From Microbacterium sp. MYb62 (GTDB lineage: Bacteria > Actinomycetota > Actinomycetes > Actinomycetales > Microbacteriaceae), in NCBI RefSeq assembly GCF_002979475.1, contig NZ_PCOY01000019.1, positions 1 to 64,000 on the forward strand: a stretch of DNA of 64,000 bases, written 5' to 3'. The notes below the pieces were generated by a model. The model was not told the DNA's origin. It saw nothing but the letters and a program-made list of their open reading frames with translations, and did no database searches. Positions 4,432 to 37,235 of the stretch are shown piece by piece. Position numbers and translations under genes: made by a program. Position 1 is the stretch's first letter. Each line of letters opens with the position of its first letter.

Positions 4432-5241
4432 TCAGCCGAGCAGCCGCTCGATCACCTGCGCCACGCCGTCGTCGTCGTTCGAGGCGGTCGTCTCGTCGGC
4501 CGCTTCCTGAACGAGCGGTTCGGCGGCGGCCATGGCGACTCCATGCCCTGCCCAGCGGAGCATCTCGACGTCGTTGAGCGCATCGCCGAAGGCCACGACG
4601 TCGGCGCGGTCGATGCCGAGGCGGTCGCAGAGGCGGGCGAGGCCGGTGGCCTTGGTGACGCCTTCTGCCATGACCTCGACGAAGGGTGCGCCGGAGAGTG
4701 TCGCCTCGAAGCCGGTGAGCCCGAGCGCGCGGACGGTGTCGAAGAGAGCGGCCGGGGCGAGCTCGGGGTGACGGATCACGAACTTCAGGCTGGGGGCCGA
4801 CAGCACCTGCTCCAGAGGCACGCCGCCCATCGTCCGGGGGTCGCGTTTGTGGTCGGCGAGAGCGGCGATCGCGGCGTAGCCGTCTTGCGCCACGAACGTC
4901 TCGCCGGCGTCGCGCACGCTGGCGAACAGCAGGCCGGGGATGCTGGCACGCAGGGCCTCGGCGAGCGAGCGGATCGTGTCGGCGGGAAGCTCTTCGGCGA
5001 ACAGCATCCGCCCGTCGTCGAGGCGCACCGCATAGGCGCCGTTGCTGCACAGCGCCCAGCCATCGAACCCGGCGTCGGCCGCGATCGCACGCAGACCGAT
5101 CGGCTGGCGGGCTGTGACCGGGACGACATGGATATCGCGCGCGCGGGCTGCGTCGAGAGCCGCGCGCGTGCGCGGGGTGACGGCGGAAGTCGAGTCGAGA
5201 AGGGTGCCGTCGAGGTCGGTGGCGATCAGCCGGACACTCAC
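4432..5241 (-). CDS. Cof-type HAD-superfamily phosphatase
   Basis: The 269-residue cytoplasmic hydrolase carries all HAD motifs: motif I ATDLDGTLLD with the nucleophilic Asp near residue 8, motif II (VTAR), the motif III Lys in EGVTKATGL, and motif IV GDALNDVEML. A C2B-type cap sits between motifs II and III. Such enzymes dephosphorylate sugar phosphates, FMN-like or PLP-like substrates; the sequence does not show which. The GTG start at 5241 is 11 bases downstream of the exonuclease III stop, so it is probably the second gene of that transcript. Confidence 0.9.
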   Translation of the reverse strand: MSVRLIATDLDGTLLDSTSAVTPRTRAALDAARARDIHVVPVTARQPIGLRAIAADAGFDGWALCSNGAYAVRLDDGRMLFAEELPADTIRSLAEALRASIPGLLFASVRDAGETFVAQDGYAAIAALADHKRDPRTMGGVPLEQVLSAPSLKFVIRHPELAPAALFDTVRALGLTGFEATLSGAPFVEVMAEGVTKATGLARLCDRLGIDRADVVAFGDALNDVEMLRWAGHGVAMAAAEPLVQEAADETTASNDDDGVAQVIERLLG

Positions 5242-5252
5242 GAGATCGGCGT

Positions 5253-6113
5253 TCAGGAGAAGATCATCGGCAAGTCGTCGTCGTCATCGGCGCCGCCCGT
5301 CCCCAGGCGGCGGCCGTCGAGGTCGACGACCACCGGGACGTGGTCGCTGGGCTGCTCGCCCTTGCGCTCGTCGCGGTGGATGGAGGCGCCCGTCACGGCC
5401 TCGGCCAGCGTGCGCGACCCCAGGACGAAGTCGATGCGGATGCCCTCGTTGCGCGGGAACTTGAGGCGCTGGTAATCCCAGTACGTGTATCCCTCGGGCA
5501 GCAACGGTCGCACGACGTCGGTGACCCCCGCGTCCTGGAACGCGAAGAACGCGTCGCGCTCCTGCGGGGACACGTGCGTGGACCGGCCGACCACGATGTC
5601 GGGGTCGCCGTTGTCGTGGTCGAACGGGATGATGTTGAAGTCGCCCACCAGGGCGAGAGGGAGGTCGGGGTTCGCCGACAGCTCGGCGGCCGTCGACTTC
5701 TTCAGCTGCTCCAGCCAGTGCAGCTTGTACGCGTAGTGCGGGTCTTCCAGCGAGCGGCCGTTCGGCACGTACAGGCTCCACACCCGCACCCCGTCGACCA
5801 TCACGCCGAGCGCACGGGCCTCGAGCGGCGCATCCGGACCCTCATGCCCCTTCGCGAAGCCCGGCATCCCGTCGAAGGCCGTGCGCACGTCGGTGATCGG
5901 CAGGCGGCTCGCGATCGCGACGCCGTTCCACTGGTTCAAGCCGTGCACCTCGACGTGGTACCCGGCCTCTTCGAACGGTCCGTAGGGGAACTGCTCGGGC
6001 TTGCATTTGATCTCCTGCATCGCCAGCACGTCGATGTCCTCACGGACGGCGAATTCGACGGTGCGGGCGACACGGGTGCGGATGGAGTTGACGTTCCAGG
6101 TGGCCAAGCGCAT
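5253..6113 (-). CDS. xthA: Exodeoxyribonuclease III / AP endonuclease
   Basis: The 286-residue protein is an exonuclease III-type base-excision repair enzyme that cuts DNA at abasic sites. Its key blocks are visible: TWNVNSIRTR at the start (catalytic Asn), the metal-binding Glu in AMQEIKCK, the YVPNGR loop, LVGDFNIIP (Asp and Asn), RIDFVLGS, and SDHVPVVVDL with the catalytic His. Length matches the family, with a short acidic tail of Asp residues. ATG 6113 lies six bases after a TAGGCT hexamer (6125-6120). The start is only 38 bases from that of the divergent pyrE gene. Confidence 0.95.
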   Translation of the reverse strand: MRLATWNVNSIRTRVARTVEFAVREDIDVLAMQEIKCKPEQFPYGPFEEAGYHVEVHGLNQWNGVAIASRLPITDVRTAFDGMPGFAKGHEGPDAPLEARALGVMVDGVRVWSLYVPNGRSLEDPHYAYKLHWLEQLKKSTAAELSANPDLPLALVGDFNIIPFDHDNGDPDIVVGRSTHVSPQERDAFFAFQDAGVTDVVRPLLPEGYTYWDYQRLKFPRNEGIRIDFVLGSRTLAEAVTGASIHRDERKGEQPSDHVPVVVDLDGRRLGTGGADDDDDLPMIFS

Positions 6114-31685: not shown

Positions 31686-32405
31686 ATGTCATCGCCGGGG
31701 GGAGACGGCACGCGGGACCGGCCGGGCTCCCCGGTGCGGCCGGTCGCCGCGATCGTCATCGGAGCGCTCGCGATCGTCTGGATGATCCTGACGATGCTCG
31801 ATCTCCGCGAGAACGACGGCATCGCCCCGCTCATCGCGATGTTCGGCGTGCCTGCGCTCGCCGCCGCCGTCATCATCCAGATCGTGATGACGCGCGTGCG
31901 GGGCAAGGAGCGGGTGGGCGGTGCCGTGTTCTGGTGGGTACTCGTCGTGCTCCCGCTCGGGACGCTCGCCGCCTTCATCGTGGCGATCCTGCGTGACCCC
32001 GACTACTTCATCGGGGATGACGGCCCGTGGATGCTGATCTGGGTGCCGATCTTCATCTGCCTGGCGATACTGCTCGGCGCGCTCGTCTGGTTCTTCTTCG
32101 TCTTCCCCGCGGTCATGCTGGTCGAGGTGACCGGCAGGATCCTCCGCGGCGAGGCGAAGCCGACCGCGATCATCCCGTCGCTGGTGCTGCTCGCTCTGGG
32201 GGTGCTGTGCGTCGTCGGAGGCCTGTCGATCGACACCGACAGCAGCGGCCGGGCATCGTGGGGCGCGATCATCGCAGCCTTCCTCGGTGTCCCCGGCGGC
32301 TACGACGTGGTCTGGCCACCGGGTCTCTGGATCGTCCGGGGCATCATCCTGGCGATCGTGCTGGTGTTCGCGGTCCCCGCGATCTCGCGGCGAATCCGCT
32401 CCTGA
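31686..32405 (+). CDS. Polytopic membrane protein of unknown function
   Basis: No family is recognised. The 239-residue product has about seven hydrophobic segments: residues 19-37, 47-65, 76-97, 110-140 (one or two), 160-177 and 213-233. A short Gly/Arg-rich N-terminal tail precedes them and the protein ends in ISRRIRS. ATG 31686 begins one base after the glyS stop, so the gene is co-transcribed with glyS and has no promoter of its own. A functional link to the synthetase is not implied, because such tail genes vary between species. Confidence 0.75.
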   Translation: MSSPGGDGTRDRPGSPVRPVAAIVIGALAIVWMILTMLDLRENDGIAPLIAMFGVPALAAAVIIQIVMTRVRGKERVGGAVFWWVLVVLPLGTLAAFIVAILRDPDYFIGDDGPWMLIWVPIFICLAILLGALVWFFFVFPAVMLVEVTGRILRGEAKPTAIIPSLVLLALGVLCVVGGLSIDTDSSGRASWGAIIAAFLGVPGGYDVVWPPGLWIVRGIILAIVLVFAVPAISRRIRS

Positions 32406-32432
32406 GGGCCGCGTACAGGCCGGAGGGGGCTC

Positions 32433-32461
32433 TTGCATTCGGGGAGGGTGGCTGGTAACGT
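32433..32461 (+). promoter_or_regulatory. Promoter of the ABC-F leader
   Basis: TTGCAT (32433-32438) and TAACGT (32456-32461) are separated by exactly 17 bases and read toward the ABC-F gene, partly overlapping nothing coding. Transcription would begin near 32468-32470, at the GTG of a six-codon ORF. Confidence 0.65.
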
Positions 32462-32469
32462 CGCCGCCC

Positions 32470-32490
32470 GTGGGTACTCTGATCCGATAG
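32470..32490 (+). CDS. Six-codon leader ORF upstream of the ABC-F gene
   Basis: GTG GGT ACT CTG ATC CGA TAG would encode fMet-Gly-Thr-Leu-Ile-Arg. The GTG lies eight bases after the -10 TAACGT, so the transcript would start at or almost at this codon (leaderless). Such micro-ORFs control several ABC-F resistance genes by ribosome stalling; here that is an inference from layout. The stop codon lies within a small hairpin, CCGAT-AG-ATCGG. Confidence 0.4.
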   Translation: MGTLIR

Positions 32491-32498
32491 ATCGGGAC

Positions 32499-32560
32499 GC
32501 CGCGTCGAGTCTTCTCCGCGGCGGGTCCTGAGCGAGCACGGCGTCTGACCGTCGTGCTCG
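32499..32560 (+). promoter_or_regulatory. Two leader hairpins, possible attenuator, before the ABC-F gene
   Basis: Hairpin 1 pairs GCCGCG (32499-32504) with CGCGGC (32517-32522). Hairpin 2 has an 11-bp stem (32533-32543 with 32550-32560, one G-U pair) and a six-base loop, followed by a short T-containing stretch. The second could terminate or pause transcription about 75 bases before the ABC-F start. Confidence 0.45.
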
Positions 32561-32633
32561 AGGTCCGTTTCAGACACGCATCCGAGGATGCACCGTCCCC
32601 CGCTGCGCAACCGCGTCGCGGAGAGGAGACCTC

Positions 32634-34316
32634 ATGTTCCCCGTACTCCCTGTCCCCGCCCATCCACCGCTGGCCTATCGGGTCTGCGAACTCCGCGCCG
32701 CCACTGTGCGCTTCGCCGATCGAGTCGTTCTCGACCGCGTCGACCTCGTCATCGGCTCCCGGGATCGACTCGCGATCATCGGCGACAACGGTGCCGGCAA
32801 GTCCACCCTGCTCGACCTGCTCGCCGGACTGCTCACCCCGACGGCCGGCAACGTCCGAGTCTCGATCCCCGGTGGGGTCGCGCACGCCGCGCAGGCCCCG
32901 CGAGTGGCCGATGACGCGACCGTGTCGGAGGCCCTCGACGTGTTCCTCGCCGAGCTGAGGACGCTCGAACGGGCGATCCAAGACGCCTACGAGGGGCTCG
33001 CCGAGGGGGACGAGATCCAGCGACCCGTGATCCTCGACCACCTCACCGCGCTGCTCGAGCAGTTCGAAGCGCGCGAGGGCTACGACGTCGACCGACGCGT
33101 GGACGCGGCCCTCGGACGACTCGGCCTCGGCGGGCTGGACCGTGAGCGTCCGTTCATCACCCTGTCCGGAGGCGAGCGCGCTCGCGTCGCGCTCGCCGCT
33201 GCCCTCTCTTCGAAGGCTGAGCTGCTGCTGCTCGACGAGCCGACGAATGATCTCGACGAGGGTGCCCTCGCCTGGTTGGAGGGGCGGATCCAGGCTCATC
33301 GCGGAGCTCTCGTCGTGGTGACGCACGACCGCGCCTTCCTCGAGCGGTTCGCGCGCGACATCGTGCATGTGGAGAGCGGCGCGCTGAGACGTTACGGCGA
33401 CGGATATCACGGGTACCTGGTTGCGCGTGCGGTCGAACGTCAGCGGATGACGGAACGCCACGAAGCCTGGAAGATCGAGATCGCGCGCCAGGAGAACCTG
33501 CTCGCGGCCAACGCGTTCCGCCTCGACGCGATCCCGCGCAAGCTCGAACTCGACGGGTTCGGCCACGGTGCCTTCCGTGCACGCAGTCGCGATCACGGGG
33601 CCGTGGGGCGTATCCGGATGGCGAAGGAACGGCTCGCGCGCCTCCATGCCGACCCGTGCCCGCCGGCACCCGAGCCGCTGAGCCTCGTGGTCGACCTGCA
33701 CGGAGACGCCGTCGACGTGGAGGGGCCGTTGATCGTGCTGGAAGGCATCCGCATCGACGACCCGTCGACGCAGATCGTCGTGCCGCCGTTGTCGCCGGGG
33801 ACGCGGCTGCTGGTGACCGGAGCCAACGGTGCGGGCAAGACGACGCTGCTGCGGCTCCTCGCGAAGGAACGTCGACCCGATGCCGGTGCGGTGCTCTGGC
33901 GCGACGGCCTGCGGGTCTCGTGGCTGCGGCAGGAGGTCTCGCCTCCTGTTCCGGGTACTCTCGCCGAGACGTTCGCACACTCGGCGGGGGTGCACCCCTA
34001 CGATGCCGCCGAGATCCTGCTGCGCTTCGGCCTCTTCGCCGAGGACGACCTCGCACGAGAGGTGCGTGCGCTCTCGGTGGGGCAGCGCCGCCGTCTCGAC
34101 CTCGCCGTCGTGCTCGCAGACCCGGGGGACGTGCTGCTCCTCGACGAACCCACGAACCATCTGGCGCCCGAACTCATCGAGCAGCTGGAGGCGGCGATCG
34201 AAGCACACCCCGGCGCGGTCGTCACCGTCACCCATGATCGGCACTGGATCGACGCGGCGCGCAGACGCGGCGCACAGACCCTCCACCTCGACCGGGGGGA
34301 GCCGGCAGCCGGGTAA
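32634..34316 (+). CDS. ABC-F family ATPase, possible antibiotic-resistance ribosome protection protein
   Basis: The 560-residue protein has two ABC domains and no membrane helices. Domain 1 has GDNGAGKST, LSGGERARVALAAAL and LLLDEPTNDLD. A charged linker of about 80 residues (260-340) follows. Domain 2 has GANGAGKTT, LSVGQRRRLDLAVVL and LLLDEPTNHL. ABC-F proteins bind the ribosomal E site and either aid translation or dislodge antibiotics. The leader with a micro-ORF and hairpins argues for an inducible resistance type, which is an inference. A strong GGAGAGGAG site precedes ATG 32634. Sequence around its stop is duplicated. Confidence 0.88.
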   Translation: MFPVLPVPAHPPLAYRVCELRAATVRFADRVVLDRVDLVIGSRDRLAIIGDNGAGKSTLLDLLAGLLTPTAGNVRVSIPGGVAHAAQAPRVADDATVSEALDVFLAELRTLERAIQDAYEGLAEGDEIQRPVILDHLTALLEQFEAREGYDVDRRVDAALGRLGLGGLDRERPFITLSGGERARVALAAALSSKAELLLLDEPTNDLDEGALAWLEGRIQAHRGALVVVTHDRAFLERFARDIVHVESGALRRYGDGYHGYLVARAVERQRMTERHEAWKIEIARQENLLAANAFRLDAIPRKLELDGFGHGAFRARSRDHGAVGRIRMAKERLARLHADPCPPAPEPLSLVVDLHGDAVDVEGPLIVLEGIRIDDPSTQIVVPPLSPGTRLLVTGANGAGKTTLLRLLAKERRPDAGAVLWRDGLRVSWLRQEVSPPVPGTLAETFAHSAGVHPYDAAEILLRFGLFAEDDLAREVRALSVGQRRRLDLAVVLADPGDVLLLDEPTNHLAPELIEQLEAAIEAHPGAVVTVTHDRHWIDAARRRGAQTLHLDRGEPAAG

Positions 34317-34348
34317 GAGGACGCGAATCGGGTACGAGGACGCGAATC
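34311..34348 (+). repeat. 19-bp tandem duplication across the ABC-F stop codon
   Basis: Bases 34311-34329 contain the TAA stop and are repeated at 34330-34348 with one mismatch (18 of 19), which turns TAA into TAC in the second copy. Confidence 0.85.
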
Positions 34349-34406
34349 GGAGAACGCTATGTATGCTGTCGCCTACGCACGGGGACAGCGACCAGATCGG
34401 AAGACG

Positions 34407-37235
34407 ATGACGTTCAAACGACGGAACGCAGGCACGGAGTCCCGGGGGCGTCGCTGGAGGGCGGGGCTGGCGCTGAGTGTGGCGGCTGCCCTCCTCGGCG
34501 GCGTTCTCGGAGTGGGCGCATCCTTCGTGACCGCCGCTCCGGCGCAGGCCGCGGTTCCCGCATTCGAGTGCACGAGTTCCACGTATGTCGTCACGGCGGA
34601 CGGTGCGATCTCCCGAGTGGATCCGACGACCGGCGCTGCCACCGCCAACGGTCAGTTCACGGTTCCGGCCGGTGACACGGTCAATGCGCTCGCATTGGAC
34701 GAGGGCGGAGGGCGCTACATCTGGGGGTATGACCGCACCGCGGGTCAGGTGCTGAGGTTCGATTCGACCACGGAAGCCACGGACGCCTACCCGGGGTTGC
34801 CGAACACCTCCGGCGTCGTGGCGGGCGCGATCAACCCGGACACGGGGATCTATTACTTCGCGACCTCGGGTGTCATCTGGACCCTGTACGCGTTCGATAC
34901 CAGCACCAACACCCTCATCGGTCAGGTCGCGACCATCTCCGGTCTCTCCGCCAACGGTGACATGGCATTCGACTCCGTCGGGAACCTGTACGCCGTCTCC
35001 AATGCCGATGCGACCGCAGCGGGCGTCTTCGCGCGCGTGCCCGGTCCCATCCCTGCGGTCGCCGGCACGGCGGCCCTGTCTGCCGAGGTCATCACCACGA
35101 CCCCTCCCAACCTGGGGCAGTACCACTCGGTCGCCGTCGTGTCTGACGGCTCTATCGCGATCGGTGCCGGCTCCACGATCACCCGAGTCCGCCCGGAGAA
35201 CGGTGCCACTCTCTCGCAGTCGAACACCGGCATCGGCTTCGTGGACGTCGCGAGCTGTGCGTACCCCAATCTGGTGTACGCGCAGAAGGTCCTCCCGAAC
35301 GGGCGGTATCTGCCGACGGATCAGTTCCGGCTCGACGTCACCTCGCCGATTCTGCCGAGAGAGTACATCGGGATCACCGAGGGGACGGAGCCCGGTCGGC
35401 AGGACCTGCCGGGGGAGACCGCCGGGCCGGTGCTCGGACTCGACAGTGCGACGTTCACTCTGACCGAGGGGGCAGTCGGAACGACGGACTTCGCGAACTA
35501 CGAGACGTCGTGGACATGCACGAACAACACCGACGGCGCCGTGTTGTCCTCCGGAACCGGGCGGGTCGCCGACGTCACGCTCCCTACGGGTTCGAACGCT
35601 GCAGACGTTCGCTGCGATTTCGTGAACCTCGCACTTCTTCCGGCGCTCACGCTCGTCAAGCGGGTCGTCGACGTGCTCGACGTGAATGGGAACGGCTACA
35701 ACGACCTGGGCGACCAGATTCTCTGGGCGTTCGATCTCCACAACACGGGCAACACCGATCTCAGCGACCTCACGGTCGCCGACGACGTCCTCGGCGCCGC
35801 GGGTATCGGAGTCACCTGCGATCCCGACTCGCTCACGCCCGATGGGCGCGTCACGTGTGAGGCGGACGCGCGCTACACGATCACCCAGGCGGACGTGGAC
35901 AACGGTCAAGTTCTCAACACCGCCACCGCGACAGGTACTCCGCCCACTCAGCCGCCGGTGACGACGCCTCCGTCGTCGACGACGACCCCTGTCGGCGACT
36001 ACACGGTGACGAAGACATCCGACCCGTCTTCGGGTTCCGTCGTCGCGATCGGCGACGAGATCACCTACACCGTCACCGTCGAGCACGTCGGAACCGCCGA
36101 CGTCCCCGGTGCGAACTTCCTGGACGATCTGTCCGATGTGCTGGATGATGCCACCTTCAACGGCGACGCCACGGCTTCGGGAGGAACGGTCGACTTCGAC
36201 GCGGCCAGCGGCGAGTTGACCTGGCTCGGCGATCTGGTCAGTGGGGACACGATCACGATCACCTACTCGGTGACGGTGACGAACGACGGCAACTCCACCC
36301 TGGCGAACGTCGTGACCAGCCCCGGGTGCACGGAATCCTGCACGACGGAGAACCCCGTCGGCGACTACTCGGTCTCGAAGTCCTCTGATCCGGTTTCGGG
36401 GACGAGTGTCGCGGTCGGCGATCGCATCGCCTACACGATCACGGTCGGACAACTCGGGAGCGCGGCCGTCACGGGCGCCCTCTCCGATGACCTCTCCCGA
36501 GTCCTCGACGATGCGACGTTCAACGGCGATGCCACGGCATCTTCCGGACTGCTTTCCTTCGACCCCGAGACCGAGGCGTTGAGCTGGTCCGGGAACCTGG
36601 CTGTCGGCGAAGTCGTCACGATCACTTACTCGGTGACGGTGACCGGAGAGGGCGACGGGGTCCTCGACAACGCCGTCACCAGCGACAAGTGCGAAGACTC
36701 CTGCGTCACGACGCACACGATCGGCGGGTTCGTGTTCGCCAAGGTCGCGGATCCGGTCTCGGGGGAGACCGTCCGCACCGGCCAGAGGATCACCTACACC
36801 GTCACCGTCACCCAGACCGGTGTCGGCCCGGTCACTGGGGCCGACGTCACGGATGACCTCTCCGGTGTGCTCGACGATGCGACATGGAACGACACGGCGG
36901 TCGCGAGTTCCGGCACGGTCGCGCGCTCGGGGAACTCTCTTGTCTGGAGCGGTGACCTCGCCAGAGGTCAGGTGGTCTCCATCACCTACTCCGTCACTGT
37001 GAAGGAAGGTGGCGACCGTGCGCTCCGGAACGTCGTGACCACGACCGATCCTCTCGGTGCCTGCGATCCTTCCGCGGCCTGCTTCACACAGCACTTCGTC
37101 CCGCCTCCGCCGGGACTTGCGGCCACCGGTGGGACGATCGCGTGGACGGCCGCCGGGTTCGGAGCTCTGGCGCTGATGGTGGGTGCAGGGATGATGCTTG
37201 CTGCGCAGCGCCGACGGTTCATCCGCCTGGACTGA
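34407..37235 (+). CDS. LAxTG-anchored cell-surface protein with DUF11-type repeats
   Basis: The 942-residue protein has a signal peptide (residues 1-49, basic start, cleavage after AQAA). A beta-propeller-like domain follows (about 52-290, DUF6923-type), then a DUF11-like domain near 415-520. Three tandem repeats of about 120 residues start near 530, 651 and 772, each with SDPxSG, ITYTVTV, LSxVLDDATxN and YSVTV. The end is a Pro stretch, LAATGG, a hydrophobic helix and RRRF, a sortase signal of the LAxTG kind used by class E sortases. It is probably a wall-anchored stalk or adhesin. ATG 34407 was chosen over 34359 because TATGCT near 34364 looks like the -10. Confidence 0.85.
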   Translation: MTFKRRNAGTESRGRRWRAGLALSVAAALLGGVLGVGASFVTAAPAQAAVPAFECTSSTYVVTADGAISRVDPTTGAATANGQFTVPAGDTVNALALDEGGGRYIWGYDRTAGQVLRFDSTTEATDAYPGLPNTSGVVAGAINPDTGIYYFATSGVIWTLYAFDTSTNTLIGQVATISGLSANGDMAFDSVGNLYAVSNADATAAGVFARVPGPIPAVAGTAALSAEVITTTPPNLGQYHSVAVVSDGSIAIGAGSTITRVRPENGATLSQSNTGIGFVDVASCAYPNLVYAQKVLPNGRYLPTDQFRLDVTSPILPREYIGITEGTEPGRQDLPGETAGPVLGLDSATFTLTEGAVGTTDFANYETSWTCTNNTDGAVLSSGTGRVADVTLPTGSNAADVRCDFVNLALLPALTLVKRVVDVLDVNGNGYNDLGDQILWAFDLHNTGNTDLSDLTVADDVLGAAGIGVTCDPDSLTPDGRVTCEADARYTITQADVDNGQVLNTATATGTPPTQPPVTTPPSSTTTPVGDYTVTKTSDPSSGSVVAIGDEITYTVTVEHVGTADVPGANFLDDLSDVLDDATFNGDATASGGTVDFDAASGELTWLGDLVSGDTITITYSVTVTNDGNSTLANVVTSPGCTESCTTENPVGDYSVSKSSDPVSGTSVAVGDRIAYTITVGQLGSAAVTGALSDDLSRVLDDATFNGDATASSGLLSFDPETEALSWSGNLAVGEVVTITYSVTVTGEGDGVLDNAVTSDKCEDSCVTTHTIGGFVFAKVADPVSGETVRTGQRITYTVTVTQTGVGPVTGADVTDDLSGVLDDATWNDTAVASSGTVARSGNSLVWSGDLARGQVVSITYSVTVKEGGDRALRNVVTTTDPLGACDPSAACFTQHFVPPPPGLAATGGTIAWTAAGFGALALMVGAGMMLAAQRRRFIRLD

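Follow-up and report, generated by a model that had tools for sequence, protein, structure and literature searches.

The leader of an actinomycete ABC-F gene suggests that drug-jammed ribosomes at the tip of an RNA may switch the gene on

In translational attenuation of the ErmC type, a stalled ribosome displaces an RNA strand, opening the ribosome site of the resistance gene. Attenuation through drug-held ribosomes on short frames upstream of ABC-F genes is established, including in Streptomyces (PMC12421871, PMC8546547, PMC10201436). In the known cases of inducible resistance via stalled ribosomes, the leader frames lie inside an ordinary 5' UTR. Translation of leaderless messages follows a separate route of initiation, by 70S ribosomes. 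Leaderless transcripts are reported to be common in mycobacteria (PMC4633059), and the polycysteine frames of mycobacteria provide another example of leaderless leader peptides (PMC13236596).

The locus described here lies in a 64,000-nucleotide stretch of DNA from Microbacterium sp. MYb62 (the window). A preliminary description had noted a promoter, a six-codon open reading frame and a series of hairpins upstream of an ABC-F gene, and had read them as a ribosome-sensing attenuator. The observation was confirmed, with the micro-ORF, hairpins 1 and 2 and the ABC-F ribosome site at the positions given there. The features of the leader are as follows.

32433-32438, + strand: weak -35-like TTGCAT (3/6 bases match the consensus)
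32453-32461, + strand: extended -10, TGG TAACGT (TGnTAnnnT in 16/16 genus leaders)
32470-32490, + strand: micro-ORF GTG GGT ACT CTG ATC CGA TAG (MGTLIR*), probably leaderless, present with 16/16 orthologues
32478-32496, + strand: hairpin 0 at the micro-ORF stop, a predicted fold, probably incidental
32498-32523, + strand: hairpin 1, CGCCGCG-UC-GAG-UCUU-CUC-CGCGGCG with a two-nucleotide bulge and compensatory pairs; arms 32498-32504/32517-32523 plus GAG/CTC 32507-32509/32514-32516; core CGUNGAG...CUCCG conserved in the 28-leader alignment A4
32510-32523, + strand: anti-ribosome-site strand UCUUCUCCGCGGCG, part of hairpin 1, pairing with 32614-32627
32533-32560, + strand: hairpin 2, with compensatory pairs within the genus; the outer GG.CCU/AGG.CC helix extends to 32524-32566
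32578-32591, + strand: hairpin 3, a variable inverted repeat, seen by eye in several genus leaders
32614-32628, + strand: ABC-F ribosome-binding site plus upstream flank, which the A2 consensus fold pairs with the strand of hairpin 1
32620-32628, + strand: ABC-F ribosome site GGAGAGGAG
32634-34316, + strand: ABC-F ATPase, 560 aa, ATG at 32634, nearest to the TlrC/CarA/OleB/SrmB family

The ABC-F protein (560 residues) contains two ABC_tran stretches by domain search. Its best NCBIfam match is NF000171 (ABCF_producer), with 559.9 bits, below the cut-off of 800, and the wider model NF000355 gave 350.6 bits, below its cut-off of 380. All 16 genus members match the three models found for the window protein, NF000171 included, at 1e-80 or better (best for NF000171, 2e-176). 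The protein is nearest to the TlrC/CarA/OleB/SrmB ribosome protection proteins, below the family cut-off, and its gene is a probable antibiotic-resistance gene. Upstream of the gene lie a glycine--tRNA ligase gene (653.5 bits, cut-off 312) and a hydrophobic frame without a family match. PADLOC matches look like generic ATPase matches and were set aside, and a 1801-codon open frame on the minus strand (31689-37094), antisense to the ABC-F gene and its neighbours, probably just reflects codon usage at high G+C. In genome G585, from another genus of the same family, the same kind of ABC-F gene is divergent to an Erm 23S rRNA methyltransferase gene (226.6 bits, above the cut-off of 212), which occupies 4851-5624 (+) of locus L146.

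The promoter had been described as TTGCAT-17-TAACGT. Both hexamers are present (TTGCAT at 32433-32438, 17 nt, TAACGT at 32456-32461, 8 nt, GTG at 32470), but the -35 is weak, and among the other genus leaders TTGCAT recurs, by eye, only in the nearest relative, L011 (spacer 18). The conserved promoter part is instead the extended -10 TGnTAnnnT, which precedes the start codon by 8 nt in the genus leaders and by 7 nt in L020 (16/16); most of the bases between the -10 and the start codon vary among the 16. Promoters of the WhiB7/WblC regulon carry an AT-rich box directly 5' of the -35; by eye no such box is present here, where GGCCGGAGGGGGCTC precedes TTGCAT. A scan of 31800-35000 found no consensus promoter and no terminator-like or intrinsic terminator site, and an Rfam search of the window matched nothing at gathering threshold.

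Of 366 genomes of the genus, 16, among them that of the window, have an ABC-F orthologue (E <= 1e-120), and all 16 orthologues are preceded by the micro-ORF, which encodes MGTLIR in 12 and MGTLIL, MGTLIH, MGTLAS and MLIL in one each, the last (L014) being two codons shorter, in frame. Within codons 2-5, only L020 and L014 have non-synonymous changes; the synonymous swaps seen are ACT/ACG/ACC, ATC/ATT and CGA/CGC, and start codons exchange GTG and ATG. Gly2 and Leu4 are invariant across the wider set, where some third bases differ; only third bases and the choice of codon 3 are informative in the 44-locus set, where the search pattern fixed most first and second codon positions. The conserved frame, the synonymous changes and the whole-codon length changes support the view that the micro-ORF is translated. 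A ribosome site, sought in the 13 bases ending 3 nt before the micro-ORF start codon, is lacking in 40 of 43 leaders, window included, and the three exceptions, with site-like GAGG (one) or AAGG (two), touch the -10. Among the leaders not selected for a -10, 24/26 have a TAnnnT ending 6-8 nt before the start. Judged from the sequence, the micro-ORF is very probably leaderless, with a transcript starting at its GTG; the earlier notion of a sensor ORF without 5' leader holds insofar as a ribosome site is lacking and a leader would seem to have no space, the transcription start site itself being a predicted one.

Hairpins 1 and 2 show two-sided changes at 7/32 pairs of the predicted structure in the genus alignment, and the stem of hairpin 2 holds overall, with some inner pairs broken. 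Hairpin 0, previously noted at the micro-ORF stop, is indeed predicted there, but its 7 pairs show no two-sided change in the genus and it is disrupted in L020 and, by eye, in L146; it was therefore dropped as a functional part. Outside the frame itself, too, a large part of 32470-32530 is conserved. An alignment of the leader across relatives, as the preliminary description had suggested, shows the ORF and hairpins 1 and 2 conserved in all 16 genus carriers, and this conservation proved wider than the genus (see below). The reading as a ribosome-sensing attenuator thus keeps the conserved leaderless-looking ORF, two stems and the TlrC-type ABC-F, but not hairpin 0.

Sequence comparison supports the frame and its position behind the -10, as well as hairpins 1 and 2 and the ribosome-site complementarity, and a ribosome-mediated attenuator with a leaderless sensor frame and a ribosome-site switch is tentatively proposed, the full mechanism being given slightly less than an even chance, with putative transcription start, translation, polarity, drug and protein function. 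RNA polymerase would start no more than about 2 nt from 32470, giving a transcript that opens with the GTG of the six-codon frame, and a ribosome would bind the 5' end without a Shine-Dalgarno site. With no drug, ribosomes would reach the TAG and the leading edge would cover the 5' arm of hairpin 1, freeing its 3' strand UCUUCUCCGCGG to pair with the ABC-F ribosome site (OFF). A large-subunit drug would hold the ribosome on the first codons, in which case hairpin 1 would stay and the ribosome site would be freer (ON); the ABC-F protein would then clear the drug, restoring repression. By this geometry, a leader that has lost the GTG should show higher uninduced expression, and not merely fail to be induced. 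Loss of the uORF2 start in lmrC is reported to give strong constant expression (PMC8546547), a precedent for the polarity proposed here, in which passage to the stop is OFF.

Folding calculations bear on this switch in several ways. The 181 bases of 32470-32650 fold better than 199/200 dinucleotide shuffles (z -2.99). The loop and 3' strand of hairpin 1 (32510-32523) are complementary to 32614-32627 (14 nt, 86%), a match absent from the preliminary description. In all 16 genus leaders the ribosome-site region pairs best with the segment that contains the CUCC of the hairpin 1 strand; in 13/16 this pairing is matched by no more than 14 of 1000 shuffled strands (23 in L013, 20 in L015 and 87 in L020). 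The A2 consensus fold of the whole genus leader picks the state with the hairpin 1 strand on the ribosome site; covariation between these two was looked for by permutation and none was detected (p 0.82).

Ribosome states were modelled by blocking the RNA up to the ribosome edge at the start or stop codon. When the window RNA stops at the ABC-F start codon, hairpin 1 stands at 0.87 in the free, 0.74 in the start and 0.00 in the stop state, and the anti-site pairing at 0.03, 0.00 and 0.92, respectively. In 130-base RNAs from the 16 genus leaders, hairpin 1 goes from a mean of 0.77 in the start state to 0.20 in the stop state, with a drop of more than 0.25 in 15/16. The stop-state anti-site pairing of the window depends on the RNA end, being 0.92 at the start codon, 0.31 with 9 further bases and 0.02 with 30, at which length the ribosome site is no less accessible in the stop than in the start state; the switch, if real, would therefore have to operate while little of the gene has been transcribed, or the proposal is wrong. 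This pairing is at least 0.69 in 7/16 genus leaders for RNA ending near the ABC-F start, and at least 0.7 in 3/16 (L002, L003, L012) for longer RNAs. In L002 and L012 the start state already shows values of 0.5-0.6, and in L003 the accessibility of the ribosome-site core rises, rather than falls, in the stop state. The ribosome-site accessibility of the window in the ON state reaches only 0.33-0.37. Outside the genus, the hairpin 1 strand is the best ribosome-site partner in 2/27 leaders, and a ribosome at the stop lowers hairpin 1 by more than 0.25 in 7/27; most of the four-codon frames stop too far short of the hairpin. With these counts, the ribosome-site switch was rejected as a general read-out outside the genus; the sensor would be shared, and the read-out probably differs by lineage, or there is another common mechanism.

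The leader extends well beyond the genus. Homologues of about 50% identity from Actinomadura, Nonomuraea and Streptomyces plasmids carry an MGSL* or MGSLIFL* frame after a -10-like site, and this frame together with the hairpin core CGUNGAG...CUCCG is present in 5/7 distant loci read, the leaders from the contig search having been read for the best 4 of 80 loci (49-52% identity). Locus L028 has a frame MLIRGR after a ribosome-site-like stretch, and no micro-ORF was seen in the leader of L030. Homologues were found in 63/121 genomes of one further genus (E <= 1e-95) and in 15/258 genomes of an order-level search (E <= 1e-90); the MGxL pattern matched in 17 of the 44 loci from these genus and order searches (L149-L192), among which L186 has too short an upstream sequence for its leader to be read. 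In one of them, L180 (G602), the match to the ABC-F homologue contains one TGA, and the leader (MGTLIFQ) nevertheless looks intact.

Leader searches were made with two models. Model R1, run on 398 family genomes and 31 fetched loci, gave 4 matches in the genomes, those in the window and G585 being real and those in G043 and G750 (26 bits) having by eye no such leader; on the 31 loci it gave a clear match to L022 (65.6 bits), weak ones to L109 (16.7 bits) and L107 (13.2), and 12.2 bits for L044, the other distant leaders among these loci going unrecognised. A loose pattern matched in 74/394 class genomes, as did its reversed control in many, and eight new places were picked by eye (G811, G1094, G995, G1042, G1113, G1077, G991, G602), with G1077 (L145) dropped after re-reading gave no pattern match. 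Model R2 (frame plus hairpin core), built from the 28 leaders of alignment A4, matched at E <= 0.05 in 53 of 296 class genomes. All ten matches of at least 35 bits lie 5' of ABC-F homologues, eight of them already in the model's alignment and two, L197 (MGYLFL) and L201 (MGTLLFFL), being independent new leaders. Five loci read with matches below 35 bits (L203-L206, L208) have no ABC-F homologue; by eye, L203 and L204 resemble the beginning of a NUDIX-type gene.

In a 72-protein tree (quick method, midpoint root, clade support 83), the 39 rows bearing the leader, defined as an MGxL frame or its two-codon-shorter form, are all inside one ABC-F clade of 45 rows, and leader presence requires 7 changes, versus a mean of 23.9 with shuffled labels. 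The clade rows not counted as carrying the leader are L028, L030, L150, L156, L163 and L182, the last with a leaderless-looking frame MGGWYYFYI. Over 38 distinct versions of hairpin 1, 259/342 cells are paired versus 229 +/- 4.9, with none of 2000 shuffles as high, a result inflated by relatedness and including L144 and L182, which look wrongly anchored. Start codon and hairpin core lie 33-35 nt apart in 33/39 distinct leaders, a count that leaves out L014 with its shorter frame and correspondingly shorter distance (28), and frame length (four to seven codons) has a correlation of 0.04 with core position.

These leaders may belong to a class-wide family of actinomycete drug sensors whose leaderless MG[S/T/A]L frame would be read by a ribosome at the extreme 5' end, a reading that is possible though rather doubtful. 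It draws on the near constancy of the start-to-core, rather than the stop-to-core, distance, in which case sensing would take place at initiation and during formation of the first peptide bonds. At residue 3, 40/41 distinct MGxL leaders have Ser, Thr or Ala (Tyr in L197, the exception; Thr in L201), partly by selection, the search pattern having admitted only Ser, Thr, Ala and Pro. Arrest by chloramphenicol and linezolid is favoured when the penultimate residue of the chain is Ala, Ser or Thr (PMC8987054), which would predict arrest with Leu4 in the P site; Ala is the strongest of the three yet rare here, which speaks for another drug.

Other ABC-F genes have leaders of different kinds. Within the genus, other ABC-F relatives (L007-L010) have leaderless-looking micro-ORFs encoding MHLYSL, MHLYFL, MHPFFL and MHLYFL, and L174, L175, L176 and L178 have MAFYFFL, MAFYYFR, MRSYYFFR and MTFYFFL; none of these last four leaders matched the hairpin 1 pattern. 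Leaderless sensors may be a general trait of ABC-F genes in actinomycetes. By eye, L160, L162, L163, L165, L168, L170-L173 and L177 have no such micro-ORF upstream and carry GAGACG...CGTCTC-type inverted repeats near the promoter, resembling TetR operators. The L197 leader by eye combines its MGYLFL micro-ORF with a GACGAGACGGACCGTCTTG-type repeat in the promoter, and the two forms of control may coexist there. The frames ATG AAG TCT TGA, ATG AAG TCC TAG and ATG GAT AAC TAA were seen by eye before the ABC-F homologues of L184, L185 and L188, respectively.

Four other explanations of the conserved leader were considered. The same leaderless sensor might be read out by premature transcription termination, either Rho-dependent or at a hairpin without U-tract, with hairpin 1 as an antiterminator or pause hairpin. 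Such termination is reported for the related Streptomyces ABC-F genes lmrC and are5sc (PMC12421871, PMC8546547), and would suit the distant leaders where ribosome-site pairing fails; it leaves the ribosome-site complementarity of 16/16 genus leaders unexplained, and the scanned region 31800-35000 contains no terminator-like site, and we consider it unlikely, though a serious contender. The near-fixed start-to-core distance (33/39) in frames of four to seven codons would fit a role in message stability. In Bacillus, a drug-held ribosome protects the 5' end of the ermC and ermA messages; here, a drug-held ribosome on the first codon could cap the 5' end and, with hairpin 1, stabilise the message. 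This is improbable, as such protection needs neither the conserved CUCC nor the ribosome-site match of the genus, and in L014, outside the distance count, the distance (28) shrinks along with the frame.

The remaining two explanations dispense with the drug or with the frame. The frame might be translated and sense no drug, tuning basal ABC-F expression through ribosome loading or translational coupling, which would fit with the frequency of leaderless transcripts in mycobacteria (PMC4633059); the conserved MG[ST]L and hairpin core, which go with a single ABC-F clade, exceed the needs of basal loading, and we give this version a similarly small probability. Alternatively, the conserved stretch could be promoter-proximal sequence or RNA structure only, without a regulatory frame, as the conservation of 32470-32530 largely beyond the frame would allow, but the mostly third-position changes, the ATG/GTG swaps and the length differences of whole codons make this highly improbable.

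If the attenuator with a leaderless sensor is correct, it would use a different initiation route from that of ordinary leaders and could report drugs or stresses that those do not. The element also offers a compact test of leaderless initiation in actinomycete drug sensing. One frame-finding tool includes a search for a Shine-Dalgarno sequence before the start codon (PMC10219788), and may thereby miss leaderless frames. In literature titles and abstract beginnings, no leaderless frame 5' of an ABC-F gene was found among the matches listed; MGTLIR, MAFYFFL and MHLYFL were absent from literature text among the matches listed, where the occurrences of MGTL or MGSL look like other meanings, e.g. 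the mgtL leader.

The closest described systems are lmrC, tiaA and are5sc, which, like the gene here, are related actinomycete ABC-F genes with a short leader frame (PMC8546547, PMC12421871). Translation of uORF2 is needed for repression of lmrC (PMC8546547), and a premature terminator acts there, whereas here none was found in 31800-35000. The tiaA and are5sc frames have their own ribosome binding sites, a usual though perhaps not a defining trait of such attenuators, and lie inside 5' UTRs of 194 and 232 bp, whereas the frame here seemingly opens the transcript; they encode MVGDDDISG and MLV, compared with MG[ST]L... in the present family. The Firmicutes genes cplR, vmlR, vmlR2 and lsaA are likewise preceded by very short frames (MRI, MIN, MK[L/Q], MAGN), and in cplR alternative folds hide the ABC-F ribosome site, as proposed here (PMC10201436). 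In cplR the site is hidden by a U-tract terminator in a 212-nt leader, whereas no such terminator was found here and the frame is apparently without a leader. The actinomycete attenuators of the leuL, trpL and ilvL type have a leaderless frame and competing hairpins (PMC8079986), as the present locus probably does, but their frames contain codons of the reported amino acid and precede biosynthetic, transport or tRNA-ligase genes. MGTLIR*, by contrast, is without a run of codons for a single amino acid and precedes a resistance-type gene. As in ErmC-type attenuation, the position of a ribosome would decide whether the ribosome site is hidden; there the stall opens the site, whereas here stopping short would keep the hairpin that leaves the site open. 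Leader-frame attenuation and leaderless leader peptides are each known, and what appears new, by the literature matches listed, is the combination of a leaderless frame, as the sequence very probably specifies, with an ABC-F gene.
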